From the NCBI GenBank assembly GCA_030622125.1, contig JAUXGM010000090.1:1-8371 (forward strand): a stretch of DNA of 8,371 nucleotides, in the 5' to 3' direction. The position numbers were made by a program, and so were the translations under genes. The stretch comes from a bacterium. Lineage in GTDB: Bacteria; AUK180. The notes under the pieces are model-generated. The model worked only from the letters and a program-made list of their open reading frames with translations, ran no database searches and was not told the DNA's origin. This document shows, piece after piece, positions 1-6,791 of this stretch. The first letter of the stretch is position 1; every line of letters starts with the position of its first letter.

Positions 1-530
1 GAATTAAATTTTTTACAATAATACTTATTACATTTATAATTTATAATTTAAATAAGAGTAATATCATAAAATACTTTTTACCCATTATCATTATGTTGCT
101 ATTTATTTCTATTGACGTTTATTTGCCGGTGTTGAAAAGCTTTATAGAAACCAATAAAGAAAACTTATACAAAAAGGATATTGGTATATGGATTAATAAG
201 CATACAGATAAAGATGATTTGATATTTATTGATCCAAGATTGTATAATTTTAGGGTTTATTCTAAAAGGAGCTGTTTCGTTACATGGGGAGAAGGAACCA
301 GAGCGTTTTTTAGTATTGATTTTGCTATAAAATGGTGGAAGCGAGTAAATGAACTTGGCTTATATAAAACAGAAGACATAAAAAAATTTAGCATAAATAT
401 AGAAAAATTAAGATCTATTGATAGACAATATCCTTTTAAATATATTGTAGTAAAAAATAATATTAATCTTCCTTTTGAAAAAAAATATTCAAGTCGGGAA
501 TATGTGATTTATAAATATGATAAACGATAA
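1..530 (+). CDS. C-terminal part of a polytopic membrane protein (DUF6798-like), 5' end outside window
   Basis: The reading frame is open from the left edge (codons in phase with position 3) to a TAA at 528-530, so the gene starts upstream; the ATG at 93 is probably internal. The visible part begins with two hydrophobic stretches, roughly codons at 3-50 and 75-140, that look like membrane segments. About 110 mostly soluble residues follow, rich in Lys, Tyr and Phe. The soluble part has the pattern 'DDLIFIDPRLYNFRVYSKRS' followed by a TWGEG turn and a KWWKR segment. This resembles, from memory, the C-terminal domain of DUF6798-type bacterial membrane proteins, in which an 'FR.YSKR' motif follows the last membrane helices. 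These proteins are thought to be GT-C-like but their reaction is unknown. The base composition is strongly AT-rich, like the first two-thirds of the next gene, which it overlaps by 14 bases. The partial membrane protein is well supported; the family assignment is tentative. Confidence 0.6.
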   Translation, partial: IKFFTIILITFIIYNLNKSNIIKYFLPIIIMLLFISIDVYLPVLKSFIETNKENLYKKDIGIWINKHTDKDDLIFIDPRLYNFRVYSKRSCFVTWGEGTRAFFSIDFAIKWWKRVNELGLYKTEDIKKFSINIEKLRSIDRQYPFKYIVVKNNINLPFEKKYSSREYVIYKYDKR

Positions 531-1971
531 AACATTTAAGAAAAATTTTGTTACCTCACTTACAAGTTCATACATTATTCAATTTTCCATAATGGGAATA
601 AGTTTTATTTCCCAGATGGTTATCGCAAGGGTATTGGCAAATGCTGAGTTTGGACTTTTTGCAATGGCAACCTTTGTAAATCTTATTTTATCAAATATAA
701 TTAATCTTGGCTTCGGAAAACATCTTATAAGAACGGATTATAAAAAATGGGGAAATGCAATATTATTGCAACTTATTGTTATGGGATTTATTGTAACTCT
801 ATTTCAAACATATCCTCAAATAATCAGTTTTTACAGCAGTGAAATTGTCGGAATAATGAAAATATACTCATTAAATTTAATCTTCTTGACCATATCTTCA
901 ATTTTCAGCACATATTTATTAAAGGAATTAAAGATCCAGAAGATGATCATCCCTCAAATAATTTCAACGATTATATATGTAATTATTGTTATTTATCTGG
1001 GGTTTCGTCATTATGGCGTCTGGGCAATAATCTATGCGACAATGATTAGTGAAGTATTTAAATCACTTTATCTTTTTTGTATCTGTGGAAAGAAATTATT
1101 GTCAAGATTTAGATTTACATTTGAACACAGTTGGAGTCTATTGAGCGGAGCATTCTATCTCTTTTTGATCTTATTGGTAGGAAATTTTTACAATCAGATA
1201 CATAATGCACTTTTAGGTAAGTTTCTCACCCCTGCTTTTGTCGGAATGTTCTACCTTGCATATAGATTTGTTTTATTACCGGAAAAAATGATATCAAAGG
1301 CATTCAGACAGGTTTTATATCCGGCATATATGAACAATATTGAAAACAAGGAAAGGGTACAAAAAATTATAAAGTATTCTACATTATCAGTTGTAGCAAT
1401 TGAGGTTTTTATCTATGCTCTTATGTTTATTTATGCAGATTTAATCATTAGGATAGTTTACGGAAGCAGACACCTTGATATTATACCGCTTTTCAGGTTT
1501 ATCTGTTTTATTCCTATTATCTTTCCCTTCGGAAAATACACGGAGAGTATTCTCATCGCTTACAAATATGAAAAATGGAATTTCTACGGACTGGTGATCA
1601 ACCTGCTGATGACGGTCCTTTTGGGCCTCTGGCTGATACCCAAATATCAGAATTACGGTATGGGCATCATCAGATATATCTCCCCCGTATTTCTGCTGAT
1701 CCCCATTTACATCACAACAAAAATTCTTAGGTATAAGCTCTTTTTCAAGGAGTATATCCTCATTTATCTGCCCATCCTTGCTGCTTTTTTGACATTAATT
1801 CCTTCGCTGAAGACCCGTCTATATTTTCTTCCAATTATTCTCCTGATGTATTCCCTGATACTGCTTCTTGAATACAAGTATATCTATAGTGAATACCTTG
1901 ACATTAAAAAGCGCTTCCGGCTTCGAAAGCAGAGAAACAAGACTGTTCGGGATCCGGACGGAGAGAAGTAA
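517..1971 (+). CDS. Wzx-like lipopolysaccharide/oligosaccharide flippase (MOP superfamily)
   Basis: This 484-aa protein is almost wholly hydrophobic, with around 12-14 likely membrane helices separated by short Lys/Arg-rich loops, the usual size and shape of Wzx-type flippases. The N-terminal region, including 'QMVIARVLANAEFGLFAMAT' (about residues 33-52), carries the 'ar.L...efGlfa' signature of the polysaccharide-export branch (Polysacc_synt_3-like). Such proteins move undecaprenyl-linked glycan units across the inner membrane. The tail ends in a basic stretch (KKRFRLRKQRNK). The ATG at 517 lies inside the previous gene and has only a weak ribosome site, so translation is probably coupled. 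The stop overlaps the start of the next gene as TAATG. Odd feature: codon use changes within the gene. Up to about 1500-1590 leucine is mostly TTA/TTG/CTT; afterwards CTG/CTC and G/C-ending codons become frequent, suggesting a recombination point. The export role is well supported; the substrate is unknown. Confidence 0.85.
   Translation: MINDKTFKKNFVTSLTSSYIIQFSIMGISFISQMVIARVLANAEFGLFAMATFVNLILSNIINLGFGKHLIRTDYKKWGNAILLQLIVMGFIVTLFQTYPQIISFYSSEIVGIMKIYSLNLIFLTISSIFSTYLLKELKIQKMIIPQIISTIIYVIIVIYLGFRHYGVWAIIYATMISEVFKSLYLFCICGKKLLSRFRFTFEHSWSLLSGAFYLFLILLVGNFYNQIHNALLGKFLTPAFVGMFYLAYRFVLLPEKMISKAFRQVLYPAYMNNIENKERVQKIIKYSTLSVVAIEVFIYALMFIYADLIIRIVYGSRHLDIIPLFRFICFIPIIFPFGKYTESILIAYKYEKWNFYGLVINLLMTVLLGLWLIPKYQNYGMGIIRYISPVFLLIPIYITTKILRYKLFFKEYILIYLPILAAFLTLIPSLKTRLYFLPIILLMYSLILLLEYKYIYSEYLDIKKRFRLRKQRNKTVRDPDGEK
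1960..1965 (+). promoter_or_regulatory. Ribosome binding site of the amide-ligase gene
   Basis: GGAGAG lies five bases before the ATG at 1971, inside the last codons of the flippase. It supports that start and, with the TAATG overlap, indicates coupled translation of flippase and ligase. Confidence 0.7.
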
Positions 1972-3764
1972 TGGATTTTTTCGGAGTCATAAGCTATTCA
2001 GATGAAACAGATCCCAGGGAGCTCAGGGATAAATTCACCGCATTTCTCCGGAAGTCCTCGCTGGAACCCTCTGAAAAGGAGATCACAGACTCCATTCCGG
2101 GAGGCTTATTCTATTTGCCTGAGAATATCAACAGGCTGAGGACGGGCCAGGAAAAGGGGATTCTGGCGCTTGTCAATGGCCCCATCAACAAAGGAAACAT
2201 TTGCGAAGTGAATTGGCGCAGTGAGGAAAGTATCCTGGAAAATATCATTGGGGGCTTTTTTATTGCGGAAAGCTTCGGCAAAAATGAAATTTCCCTTCTG
2301 GTGGATCCTAATGGAATACAGCAGGCGTTCTATTGGTTCAATGGGGAATATTTGGTCCTTTCCGATGATCTGCGAGCAGTTGCCGCATGGCCGGAATACA
2401 AAAAAGAGCTGAATCTCAATGCCGTGGATGCTTTCTTTTCTTCTGAGACAAATTCCTTTACAGAAACCTTTTTCAAAGGGATCTTCCGGATCGAGGCGGG
2501 GCAGAGGGTCACTGTTTCAAAGAGAGGTGTGGAAAGGGACCTTTACTGGTTTTTGAAATTCATCAAAGACCGTGACCTTGATCTGATCTCCTCTGTGAAC
2601 AAACTTAATACCTCCCTTGAGAATGTCATGAAGAGATATCTGGAAAACGGAAGCCCGGATTTCGCTCTGCTGCTCAGCGGAGGCTTGGATTCGAGCTTTA
2701 TTCTAGGTGTTCTTGCAAGGATATACGATGGCCCGATCAGTACCTTCACAGTAGGCTACGAAGAGAAGGAAGGGATACAGTATGATGAGATCCCAAAGGC
2801 CCGTGTTACCGCGGAGTATTTCAAAACCTCACATCATGAGATCCTTTTCACAAGAGATGAATTCCGCGATCTCCTGTTCGGAGAATATACCAGGACAATG
2901 GATGAGCCTAATGGTAACATTGCGAATCTGACTCTTATAAATGTTGTAAAAGAAATGTCTGGACGCTTCAGCAATGTCCTGAACGGTCTGGGTCCGGATT
3001 CTTTTTTTTACAGTAACGCAAATGATTTTAGATACGGCAGCATATATACCATTCTTAAATTTCTGGAAATTACAGGGATGGGAAAATCCCTTGAATTCAT
3101 GCGTGGGGCTCTTATGAGGATGGAGATCTTTGATCATAGATTGAACAGGATCTTCTTTACTCCAAAAGCATATATTCGGGGTGTTAAAACCATGCCTCCA
3201 CTAAATCATTACAGGAAATATCAGATTTACAACCCATTGATGCTGAAAGTGAAAAGACAGACCGAGCTCTTTTATGATGATCTTTTAAGAAGCCATCTTT
3301 CACTACTGGGCAACAACCATGAACTTTCGGATGCAATGGCTTTTATGGACCTTAAACTTGTGGTACACAGGAATTTCATCCCATCTTCCTGCCAGATATT
3401 TCCCCGGGCAGGGATTGGAGTGTATTCGCCTTTCCTTGATCCCAAGTTCATGGAAGATTATGGAACCATACCGCAGGAAAGCAAGTATTTCCCGTGGCAA
3501 AGCAAGAAATTGCAGAAAATCATGGCAAAACGATTTCTGCCAAATGAGATACTGAACCGGAAAAAAGTGCCCTTCAAGGTTCCCCATGTAAAATGGATGC
3601 TGGCGGATTTCAAGCCGCTGATGTTGGAACGGATATTTTCCAGCAGTCACACCGGCCGTATTTTCAGGAAATCCGGATTGAAGGAATTTCTCAGCATAAA
3701 GCATTCTCCGGTAGTGCTTTGGAGGGTATTTCTTCTTATTAAATGGCTTGATGAGAATTTTTAG
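1971..3764 (+). CDS. Asparagine-synthetase-like ATP-dependent amide ligase with inactive glutaminase domain
   Basis: This 597-aa protein has the two-domain plan of class-B asparagine synthetases. Residues ~1-190 form a degenerate Ntn glutaminase-like domain, with recognisable remnants at NG (69-70), GGFFIA (94-99) and 'LLVDPNGIQQAFYW' (109-122). The catalytic Cys that should follow Met1 is absent: the protein begins MDFFGVISY, with Phe4 where the Cys of CGI would align. Residues ~205-597 form the synthetase domain: the ATP/PPi loop SGGLDSS (236-242), FTVGY (259-263), MDEP (310-313), SPFLD (486-490), a lysine-rich SKKLQK (511-516) and 'LPNEILNRKKVPF' (523-535). The usual SGEGSDE motif reads NGLGPDS (338-344): Leu at the Glu position and Ser for the second Glu. 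Known GATase-dead relatives, such as beta-lactam synthetase, adenylate a carboxylate and join it to an amine without glutamine. Coupling to a flippase suggests glycan decoration, which is inference; the substrate is unknown. No frameshift is seen. Confidence 0.85.
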   Translation: MDFFGVISYSDETDPRELRDKFTAFLRKSSLEPSEKEITDSIPGGLFYLPENINRLRTGQEKGILALVNGPINKGNICEVNWRSEESILENIIGGFFIAESFGKNEISLLVDPNGIQQAFYWFNGEYLVLSDDLRAVAAWPEYKKELNLNAVDAFFSSETNSFTETFFKGIFRIEAGQRVTVSKRGVERDLYWFLKFIKDRDLDLISSVNKLNTSLENVMKRYLENGSPDFALLLSGGLDSSFILGVLARIYDGPISTFTVGYEEKEGIQYDEIPKARVTAEYFKTSHHEILFTRDEFRDLLFGEYTRTMDEPNGNIANLTLINVVKEMSGRFSNVLNGLGPDSFFYSNANDFRYGSIYTILKFLEITGMGKSLEFMRGALMRMEIFDHRLNRIFFTPKAYIRGVKTMPPLNHYRKYQIYNPLMLKVKRQTELFYDDLLRSHLSLLGNNHELSDAMAFMDLKLVVHRNFIPSSCQIFPRAGIGVYSPFLDPKFMEDYGTIPQESKYFPWQSKKLQKIMAKRFLPNEILNRKKVPFKVPHVKWMLADFKPLMLERIFSSSHTGRIFRKSGLKEFLSIKHSPVVLWRVFLLIKWLDENF

Positions 3765-3805: not shown

Positions 3806-4927
3806 CTATTGCATATACTGTCTGACCCCTTTGATCACCTCATTCTGTTCCTTTTCTTTCAAAGTATGGAAAAGGGGTAGACGGAGCAGTCTTTTGCTCA
3901 TATCTTCAGTGATCGGCAGTTCTCCTTCCCGGTAGCCAAGGGAATGCCCTACGGGAAAACTGTGCAAGGGAATATAATGGAATACAGCAAGTATTCCCAG
4001 GGTTTTCAGGTGCTTCATAAGCCCATCCCTCATTTCACCGTTTGGGAGTATCACATGGAATATATACGAATTATGGATTATGTCCTCTGGATGTTGCGGC
4101 AAATCAAGTCCTTTGATGTCCTTGAGTCCTTCATTGTACCTCTTCCAGAGGAAGTTACGCCTGTCCTGGCTCTCCTTAAGATGTTCGAATTGCGCCCATA
4201 GAAATGCTGCATTAAGTTCAGAGGGGAGAAAGGATGACCCCACATCCACCCATGTGTATTTATCGATTTCACCGCGGAAAAATTTTGTACGGTTAGTTCC
4301 TTTTTCCCAGATGATCTCAGCTCTCTCTACCATCTCTTCATCGTTTATGAGTAATGCTCCGCCTTCTCCCGAGATAATATTTTTTGTTTCATGAAAAGAA
4401 AAAGCGGACATATCTCCCATGGACCCAAGGAATCTGTCTTTGTATCTGCCACCAATTCCGTGAGCCGCATCTTCGACGAGCGCTAATTTATATTGTTTCG
4501 TTAATGCGCATATGGTGTCCATCTCACATGCCGTTCCTGCGTAATGTACCGGAACGAGTGCCTTGGTATTTTCGTTGATCAACGCTTCTATGAGATTTTC
4601 GTCGAGGTTCAATGTATCGTTTCTGATATCACAAAAACGCGGGATCGCCCCTCTTAAGAGGAATGCATTGGCAGTAGACGGATAAGTAAAAGACGGCATT
4701 ATGACCTCGTCTCCCGGCTCAAGGTCGAGAAACAGAGCGATCGCCTCAAGGGCGGATGTCCCTGATGTGGTTAGAAAGGCTTGTTTGATGCCGAAATTGT
4801 TCTGAATGAACTCGGTGCATTTTTTTGAGAATATTCCATTTCCCGAGATCTTCCCTGATCGGAGTACTTCGGTGACATATTCCAGTTCCTTCTTGGTTAG
4901 TGAGGCGCTGTTAAAAGGAATTTTCAT
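3806..4927 (-). CDS. wecE: dTDP-4-amino-4,6-dideoxygalactose transaminase (WecE/RffA-like)
   Basis: This 373-aa PLP enzyme belongs to the DegT/DnrJ/EryC1/StrS family and is close to E. coli WecE (about 376 aa) along its length. Shared stretches include the MKIPFN start, 'PGDEVIMPS' then 'STANAF.LRGA' (71-93), 'VPVHYAGTACEMDTI' (125-139), VEDAA (151-155), SFHETKN (177-183, with K182 as the expected Schiff-base lysine), EKGTNR, FFRGEIDKYTW, VFHYIPLH and LLRLPLF. The family reaction transfers an amino group, usually from glutamate, to C4 of dTDP-4-keto-6-deoxy-D-glucose, giving dTDP-Fuc4N in the cytoplasm. In enterobacteria this sugar is then acetylated by WecD and used in enterobacterial common antigen; no WecD-like gene is visible here. 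The gene is last in the minus-strand set, 33 bases after the rmlB stop, and looks intact, unlike the two genes before it. Assignment to the WecE branch is strong; exact sugar stereochemistry is less certain. Confidence 0.92.
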   Translation of the reverse strand: MKIPFNSASLTKKELEYVTEVLRSGKISGNGIFSKKCTEFIQNNFGIKQAFLTTSGTSALEAIALFLDLEPGDEVIMPSFTYPSTANAFLLRGAIPRFCDIRNDTLNLDENLIEALINENTKALVPVHYAGTACEMDTICALTKQYKLALVEDAAHGIGGRYKDRFLGSMGDMSAFSFHETKNIISGEGGALLINDEEMVERAEIIWEKGTNRTKFFRGEIDKYTWVDVGSSFLPSELNAAFLWAQFEHLKESQDRRNFLWKRYNEGLKDIKGLDLPQHPEDIIHNSYIFHVILPNGEMRDGLMKHLKTLGILAVFHYIPLHSFPVGHSLGYREGELPITEDMSKRLLRLPLFHTLKEKEQNEVIKGVRQYMQ

Positions 4928-4960: not shown

Positions 4961-5970
4961 TCACTTATTTTCATAATTTCTCTGGTAGTAATTTCTATAA
5001 TCACCACTTATACAATGCTGAACCCATTCGGAATTGTCCAGATACCACTGCACGGTATCCTTCAAACCCTGAGAGAATTCCACAAAGGGTTTCCATCCCA
5101 GTTCTTTGTTGATCTTATCAGTATTCACAGCATAGCGTTTATCATGACCGGGCCTGTCCTTAAAACATAGCGGATCAAGAATACATCTTTTTCAAGTATC
5201 TCTAAAATGGTTTTCACGATATCGATATTGGTCCTTTCATTCTTTCCGCCGATATTATAAATTTCTCCGGCCCTGCCGTTTTTCAAAACCGAGATAAGCC
5301 CCCGGCAATGATCGTCCACATGGATCCAGTCACGGATATTCATTCCGTCGCCGTATACAGGAAGTTCCTTATCGTTCCGGGCATTCTCTATCATCAAAGG
5401 GATGAGTTTTTCGGGGAATTGATAAGGGCCGTAATTATTGGAGCATCTTGTGATAACGATATCCATCCCAAAGGTCTTCTGATAAGATCTGCAGATCAGG
5501 TCCGCTCCGGCCTTTGTCGCTGAGTACGGGCTGTTGGTCGCCAATGGAGTATTTTCCGTGAAGTAACCGGTCTTCCCAAGAGAACCGTACACTTCGTCAG
5601 TGGAAACTTGTAGAAATCTTTTAATACTATATTTCTTGGAAGCTTCAAGAAGGGTTAATGTGCCCTTGATATTGGTGTCTATAAAGATGCTTGGGGACAG
5701 AATTGACCTGTCCACATGGCTTTCTGCCGCCAAATTCACGACGAGATCAGGTTTTTCTCTCTTAAATACTTCTTCTATCTGTTTTTGATCAGAAATATTT
5801 ACTTTATAAAAGCTATAGTTAGGTGATGCCTTTACGGACTTGAGGTTTTCAAGGTTCCCGGCATATGTCAGCATGTCTACATTGACCACCTCATATTTCC
5901 CTTCATCGATCAATATGTGAATGAAGTTCGATCCGATGAAACCTGCTCCACCGGTAGCCAGTATCTTCAT
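4961..5970 (-). pseudogene. rmlB: dTDP-glucose 4,6-dehydratase (RmlB/RffG), frameshifted near codon 269
   Basis: RmlB removes water from dTDP-glucose to give dTDP-4-keto-6-deoxyglucose. The first 269 codons are a textbook extended SDR: NAD loop TGGAGFIGSN (6-15), LAAESHVDRS (80-89), catalytic STDEVYG (123-129), PYSATK (148-153, YxxxK) and RCSNNYGPYQ (175-184). After 'RYV' the frame is lost and ends at a TGA at 5125-5127, giving 281 aa. Reading on from 5161 in the -1 frame restores the family C-terminus: [20 protein letters not shown] and a 'WYLDNSEWV' tail, ending at a TGA at 4961-4963. The span of 1010 bases equals 336 codons plus two, so two extra T in the minus-strand TTTT run (5162-5165), or one missing base, explains it. 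Either the gene is broken or there is a sequencing error. The start overlaps the rmlA stop as ATGA. Without the RPGHD part, activity is unlikely. Confidence 0.88.
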
Positions 5971-6638
5971 TCCTTGATCTCGTTATTGCAGTCCATCATT
6001 ATCTTATTCGCGCTTCTAAACGATTCCATTGTTCCGGCATCCGTCCATTCTCCTTCAAGGATCCCGTATGTTAATATGCCGTTTTTTACATATGCGTTAT
6101 TCACATCGGTGATCTCCAATTCTCCCCGAGTGGAAAATTCCTGTTCGCGGATAATGTCAAAAACTTTTTCATCGTACATGTAATAACCTACTACTGCGTA
6201 ATTGCTTTTGGGCTTTTCGGGTTTTTCCTGTATCTCTACGATCTTCCGCTCATCCAAAGCAGCTATCCCGTATCTCTCAGGATCAGAGACCTTTCTCAAT
6301 AAAACCTTGGCCCCTTCCTTCTGCTGGAGGAGTTCCTTTGCAAAAGGTGCAATAGAATGGGAGGCGATATTGTCACCGAGGATGACACATATCCTGTCGC
6401 CGTGCGTGAAGTTTTCGGCGAGTAATAATGCGTGTGCAATGCCTTTTGCATCTTCTTGGACCTTGTAAGTAAACTCAACTTTTAACTCATGACCGCTTCC
6501 TAGGAGATTTACCATATCTCCCATATGTTCGGTTGATGTAACGATCATTATTTCTTTGATCCCGCAGGAAATCAGTTGATGAATAGGATTGTAGATCATG
6601 GGTTCGGCTCCGACCGGCAACAAATGCTTATTAGTTAC
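5967..6638 (-). pseudogene. rmlA: Glucose-1-phosphate thymidylyltransferase (RmlA/RffH), truncated at its 5' end
   Basis: RmlA joins glucose-1-phosphate and dTTP to make dTDP-glucose, the first step of the pathway continued by the two downstream genes. The homology starts abruptly at 'VTNKHLLPVGAEPMIYNP', with the first family-like codon (GTA) at 6638-6636, directly after an in-frame TAG at 6641-6639. Counting from the TTG at 6623 gives 218 aa, against about 240 for this short RmlA class. Later motifs are intact: ILGDN (81-85), DPERYG (114-119), EKPEKPKSNYAV (133-144), ELEITDVN (168-175) and WTDAGT (193-198). About 19 N-terminal residues are missing, including the LAGGxGTRL loop that binds the nucleotide and metal, so an enzyme begun at the TTG should be inactive. 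No ATG or good ribosome site precedes the remaining frame. The cut coincides with the change to AT-rich DNA. Family identity is very secure. Confidence 0.88.
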
Positions 6639-6761: not shown

Positions 6762-6791
6762 GAAAAAATTGAAAAGTTGTGGCAAAAAAGT

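Follow-up and report, generated by a model that had tools for sequence, protein, structure and literature searches.

The window analysed here, a stretch of 8,371 nucleotides, makes up the whole of contig C64, in a genome of 2.08 Mb and 192 contigs. It carries a gene for a full-length member of the asparagine-synthetase family, here called the AS-like protein, within the following set of features.

3 to 530, plus strand: DUF6798 membrane protein, C-terminal part only, cut by the contig end; a neighbour in all four loci
517 to 1971, plus strand: Wzx-type flippase (PF13440/PF01943), whose stop overlaps the AS-like start
1971 to 3764, plus strand: AS-like gene, 597 amino acids, PF00733 at 129.5 bits, with three orthologues
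1971 to 2570, plus strand: degenerate glutaminase-like N-domain (residues 1-200), without Cys1, the RGPD block, R49 and D98
2583 to 3761, plus strand: synthetase (ATP-pyrophosphatase) domain (residues 205-597; PF00733 at residues 227-575; AlphaFold2 model)
2676 to 2696, plus strand: ATP loop SGGLDSS (residues 236-242), including the Mg ligand Asp240
2901 to 2909, plus strand: DEP motif (residues 311-313), inside the clade-invariant DEPNxNxxN
2982 to 3002, plus strand: NGLGPDS (residues 338-344), the SGEGSDE equivalent, with Asp343 retained and Ser344 at the Glu352 position
3006 to 3029, plus strand: FYSNANDF (residues 346-353), clade-specific, replacing FGGY, with Asn349 at the Tyr357 position
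3174 to 3182, plus strand: IRG (residues 402-404), a clade-specific insertion, invariant in 4/4 and a gap in 47/48 Cys-type rows
3423 to 3425, plus strand: Tyr485, where the invariant Arg400 is expected from the alignment
3564 to 3566, plus strand: Lys532, by alignment the equivalent of the conserved AsnB Lys449
3806 to 4927, minus strand: convergent WecE-type sugar aminotransferase (NF008687, 529 bits, cut-off 375)

The first-pass annotation of this DNA had the open reading frame, the MDFFGV start and the positions of SGGLDSS and NGLGPDS exactly right. A Pfam search of the protein returned Asn_synthase (PF00733) alone, well above its cut-off of 21 bits, and found no glutaminase (GATase) domain. 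The start codon overlaps the flippase stop (TAATG). In the G004 and G001 orthologues the start overlaps the same upstream flippase gene, and in G003 it overlaps an upstream glycosyltransferase gene. Because of these overlaps, and because all three orthologues share the same Cys-less start, the start is correctly called; a mis-called start was rejected. An ordinary AsnB hidden by a mis-called start or a sequence error might be suspected from the frameshifted rmlB nearby in the same contig, but three orthologues from other assemblies match the AS-like protein in both start and losses and refute this explanation, whose probability we regard as negligible.

The three orthologues belong to one uncultured family-level lineage and share 49% (G003), 34% (G004) and 34% (G001) identity with the AS-like protein. 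When a profile of the four members was run against 386 genomes, these four scored above 1050 bits, a paralogue in G003 scored 333 and all others scored 182 or less. Two peptide patterns, which limit the sensitivity of the search, were run against 84,980 species genomes and returned the same three orthologues only, and the plasmid and phage matches listed are distant AsnB-like proteins of 22-27% identity. In a maximum-likelihood tree, whose bootstrap had not fully converged, the four members group together as a single clade (100/100), and their sister is the Cys-type AsnB encoded in the G003 locus (100/100). This G003 paralogue is separated from the AS-like gene by two genes and, at 400 bits, exceeds the TIGR01536 cut-off. 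The dN/dS of the closest pair is about 0.28, indicating purifying selection, with about 0.26 for the N-domain and 0.29 for the C-domain (small counts). The sequences show a single origin of the clade. Descent from an AsnB-type amidotransferase that used glutamine and belonged to a surface-glycan locus forms part of the overall explanation favoured below, which we consider to have an even chance of being correct. A literature search for AsnB relatives that lack the Cys and lie in glycan loci found nothing direct.

The first-pass annotation had also proposed that the glutaminase is dead and had asked whether the lack of the nucleophilic Cys is conserved. Among 54 distinct homologues screened at the N-terminus, 49 have a Cys-type start, one is masked, and the four of the AS-like clade are without Cys, so that the trait is conserved within the clade. 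The unselected count of Cys is therefore 49 of the 50 other homologues, the fiftieth being masked at that site. In contrast, the 47 Cys-type comparators used for the alignment, the tree and the domain ratios were chosen by their Cys, and its presence in them is no evidence because it was the selection criterion; the choice did not involve their other conserved residues. Cys1, R30-D33 (RGPD), R49, L50, P61, N79 and D98 are identical in 48/48 sequences (E. coli AsnB and the 47 comparators) and missing in 4/4 clade members. The N-domain has 36 conserved columns; the same 19 of these have been lost by every clade member, and nine are kept. The ratio of N-domain to C-domain identity points the same way: for Cys-type pairs the median is 1.26 (5-95% range 1.04-1.58, 1081 pairs), and the three distinct members of the clade give values of 0.70-0.86, so that the C-domain is the better conserved. 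Judged from these patterns, the glutaminase constraint is gone in the clade and the synthetase constraint remains, and the case for a loss of glutamine use is as strong as sequence data allow. The proposal of a dead glutaminase is thus well supported.

The synthetase domain has retained its ATP-binding machinery. The residues L233, S234, G236, D238, S239, G347, G349, D351, K429 and K449 (E. coli numbers) are kept in 4/4 members despite clade identities of 31-49%, and the AS-like protein itself possesses the ATP and Mg residues Ser236, Asp240, Asp343 and Lys532. In two of the four members, the ATP loop reads SAG rather than SGG, the first Gly being lost. HMMER aligned NGLGPDS with SGEGSDE of E. 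coli AsnB, and also with TGYGSDL of CarA and TGYGAD of beta-lactam synthetase, in which case the query bore about 18 G004 residues at its N-terminus and the aligned motif region was the window's own. From these alignments to solved structures, it follows that the equivalence with SGEGSDE and TGYG drawn in the first-pass annotation is right.

Other parts of the active site are lost in all four members: E352 (S/T/A/A), G356 (S), Y357 (N/N/S/S), R400 (Y/Y/L/L), V227 and G230, while E398 is lost in three. The DE....Y pattern that carries Glu352 and Tyr357 occurs in 50/50 other homologues (in L015 it was read by eye as SADGGDEQFCGY). The description of a rewritten active site therefore holds for Glu352, now Ser344, and Tyr357, now Asn349, but not for Leu340, the position to which the first-pass annotation had drawn attention. 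In the orthologues this position is Leu or Ile, and in the 47 Cys-type homologues position 348, its equivalent, is variable (D 32, I 4, L 4, E 3, Q 2, V 1); since Leu occurs there in Cys-type homologues too, it was rejected as the key change. On the alignment, the diagnostic changes are the losses of Glu352 (Ser344), Tyr357 (Asn349) and Arg400. The clade also has invariant motifs of its own, namely DEPNxNxxN, FYSxxNDF, the inserted IRG and RNFxxSxxQI, and 70 positions are invariant within it but rare among Cys-type homologues.

The residues that disappeared have counterparts in characterized relatives. PesC has a Glu363-Tyr368 pair, of which Y368F abolished activity and E363A lowered it (PMC13060819); from the five-residue spacing and the description, this pair is probably the equivalent of Glu352-Tyr357. 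In human ASNS, Glu-368, which our alignment places at E. coli Glu352, was modelled touching the aspartyl-AMP intermediate (PMC11615228). The main rival to an active enzyme is that the protein is a catalytically inactive relative which has kept the fold, perhaps binds ATP or a sugar, and supports the glycan machinery as a scaffold or regulates it. The losses of Glu352, Tyr357 and Arg400, that of the first loop Gly in two members, and the lack of activity of PesC Y368F would all fit such a role (PMC13060819). However, the ATP and Mg residues and Lys449 are retained in 4/4 members over a long divergence, conservation of the C-domain exceeds that of the N-domain, and the 70 clade-invariant positions speak for a specific function of the domain. 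We therefore consider inactivity rather unlikely.

The losses in the synthetase domain also affect a second alternative, in which the protein is an ammonia-dependent amidotransferase that makes a primary amide from free ammonia or from ammonia released by another protein. PesC and canonical asparagine synthetases do accept ammonia instead of glutamine (PMC13060819), and the G003 locus contains a Cys-type AsnB. Yet the changes go beyond the glutaminase to Glu352, Tyr357 and Arg400 of the synthetase domain, and there is no conserved partner glutaminase, the Cys-type sister being found in the G003 locus only. This alternative seems improbable.

The surroundings of the gene point to a glycan locus, as the first-pass annotation had claimed, and the neighbours in all four genomes support this. 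The Wzx-type flippase and the DUF6798 membrane protein adjoin the AS-like gene in 4/4 loci. Flippase and AS-like gene occur together in four of the seven genomes of the class, and both are missing from the other three. The DUF6798 protein, of about 600 amino acids, is a constant neighbour (window 3-530, L032:13743-15548, L034:12037-13815). The wecE gene was not seen beside the AS-like gene in the other loci read. In G003 the locus also contains an MBOAT acyltransferase and many glycosyltransferases, and the loci of G004 and G001 contain a VimE-like deacetylase (E 3e-15, below its cut-off) and GNAT/FemAB-like acyltransferases. The VimE-like genes (L034:7345-8661 and L035:11787-13094), with their FemAB/GNAT-like neighbours, lie in genomes in which no exosortase was found. 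In Porphyromonas gingivalis, VimE, VimA and the AsnB-like WbpS have been placed in the making of seryl-modified glucuronamide, an amino-acylated uronamide sugar (PMC7468200). VimE/FemAB neighbours were rejected as a general rule, being present in two of the four genomes only, and no substrate gene common to all four loci was found.

The locus itself appears as if it had recombined, given its G+C mosaic and the discordant nearest relatives of its genes. The window's flippase shares 74% identity with its G004 counterpart and 48% with the one in G003, against 34% and 48%, respectively, for the AS-like protein, indicating that the two genes have different histories. The G+C content is 0.24 in the DUF6798 tail, 0.33 in the flippase, 0.44 in the AS-like gene, 0.45 in wecE and 0.28 in a membrane protein at 6777. 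Further along the contig, rmlB (5125-5970, minus strand) carries a frameshift close to its 3' end, and its C-terminus continues in another frame at about 5000-5190. The rmlA gene (5967-6623, minus strand) is missing roughly the first 24 residues, where the sequence turns sharply AT-rich. A copy of rmlA that is 77% identical lies at G000:C153. The frameshift and the truncation may reflect decay or an assembly error.

Beta-lactam synthetase and the lasso cyclases are AsnB-fold proteins with amine acceptors. In our best reading, the AS-like protein is likewise an active amide ligase with an amine acceptor, a proposal that we judge to be evenly balanced between right and wrong. It is preferred because the ATP-site residues and the constraint on the C-domain persist and because AsnB-fold relatives have changed likewise before; AsnB-fold proteins can switch to amine acceptors (PMC13060819). 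The chief reason for doubt is that the Glu352-Tyr357 dyad is missing in all four members. The SAG loop in two of the four and the lack of a shared substrate gene also count against the ligase. We infer activity, acyl-AMP formation, an acceptor amine other than ammonia and a product within a glycan from sequence data. An AsnB-type amidotransferase of a glycan locus would have lost its glutaminase and would no longer draw ammonia from glutamine, while the retained loop would still bind ATP-Mg. A carboxylate, such as a sugar acid or an amino acid destined for a sugar, would be activated as acyl-AMP, and a preformed amine, either an amino sugar or an amino acid, would attack it to form the amide. 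The lipid-linked glycan could then be exported by the adjacent flippase. More tentatively, the clade could represent a separate kind of AsnB-fold ligase that uses neither the Glu352-Tyr357 pair known from AsnB and PesC nor the Tyr-Glu pair known from beta-lactam synthetase but conserved residues of its own (e.g., Tyr347, Asn351, Asp352, Arg403 and Gln475) and builds an amide cross-link or an aminoacyl decoration in a surface glycan; this is possible but doubtful.

Bacterial surface glycans are known to carry amide-linked amino acids and amines as substituents, and few enzymes responsible for these amides are known. The missing Glu-Tyr pair is the main source of interest in the clade. Paired with the Cys-type relative nearby in one genome, this glutaminase-less clade allows one to ask how an AsnB enzyme might come to accept larger amines instead of ammonia and whether it can do without the Glu-Tyr dyad.

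An AlphaFold2 model of the AS-like protein (mean pLDDT 83.9, pTM 0.88) matched TsnB9 with Z 30.6, E. coli AsnB with 25.9, human ASNS with 25.4, CarA with 25.3 and beta-lactam synthetase with 25.2. The last four are tied, so the fold does not choose between them. The hydroxyamidotransferase TsnB9 (7YLZ) is the nearest solved structure, over 515 residues, and the top sequence match, but the identity is 16% and its motif region, SGEAADEIF, has both Glu. Beta-lactam synthetase and CarA are without the N-terminal Cys. They share this with the AS-like protein, along with the ATP loop, the AsnB fold and the replacement of the second SGEGSDE Glu (Leu in CarA). In contrast, their Tyr at the first Glu of that motif (Glu348), part of a Tyr-Glu dyad, is Leu or Ile in the clade, and they are no closer to the AS-like protein in sequence or fold than AsnB is. 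The earlier analogy with beta-lactam synthetase is loose, since the AS-like protein does not have the Tyr of TGYG.

Lasso-peptide cyclases are also Cys-less and keep the ATP loop. However, the three found keep HRGPD, L076 has Glu352 without Tyr357, and the AS-like protein scores 45.1 bits against the NF033535 cut-off of 525. The lasso-cyclase profile also brought up, below its cut-off, L081, a further AsnB relative whose start (IFGIYQ) has no Cys and whose motif reads TGNGGDQ. Compared with the asparagine synthetases of TIGR01536, the AS-like protein has the SGGxDS loop and the Mg-binding Asp (SGGLDSS, Asp343) but scores 124.1 bits, below the curated cut-off of 267, and the Cys nucleophile and glutamine-binding residues are gone in 4/4 members. 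Its score for the XrtA/PEP-CTERM amidotransferase TIGR03108 is 106.4 bits, below the cut-off of 816.9. A link to exosortase protein sorting was rejected, as no PF09721 match occurs across the seven genomes of the class. The aligned Cys-type homologues, WbpS not among them, keep Cys1, RGPD, Glu352, Tyr357 and Arg400, of which the clade has none. The AS-like protein resembles WbpS, TIGR03108 and the G003 paralogue, all of them AsnB-type amidotransferases from glycan loci, in its fold, ATP loop, Mg aspartates and lysine and in being encoded close to a flippase in such a locus, and the G003 paralogue is its nearest relative in the tree.
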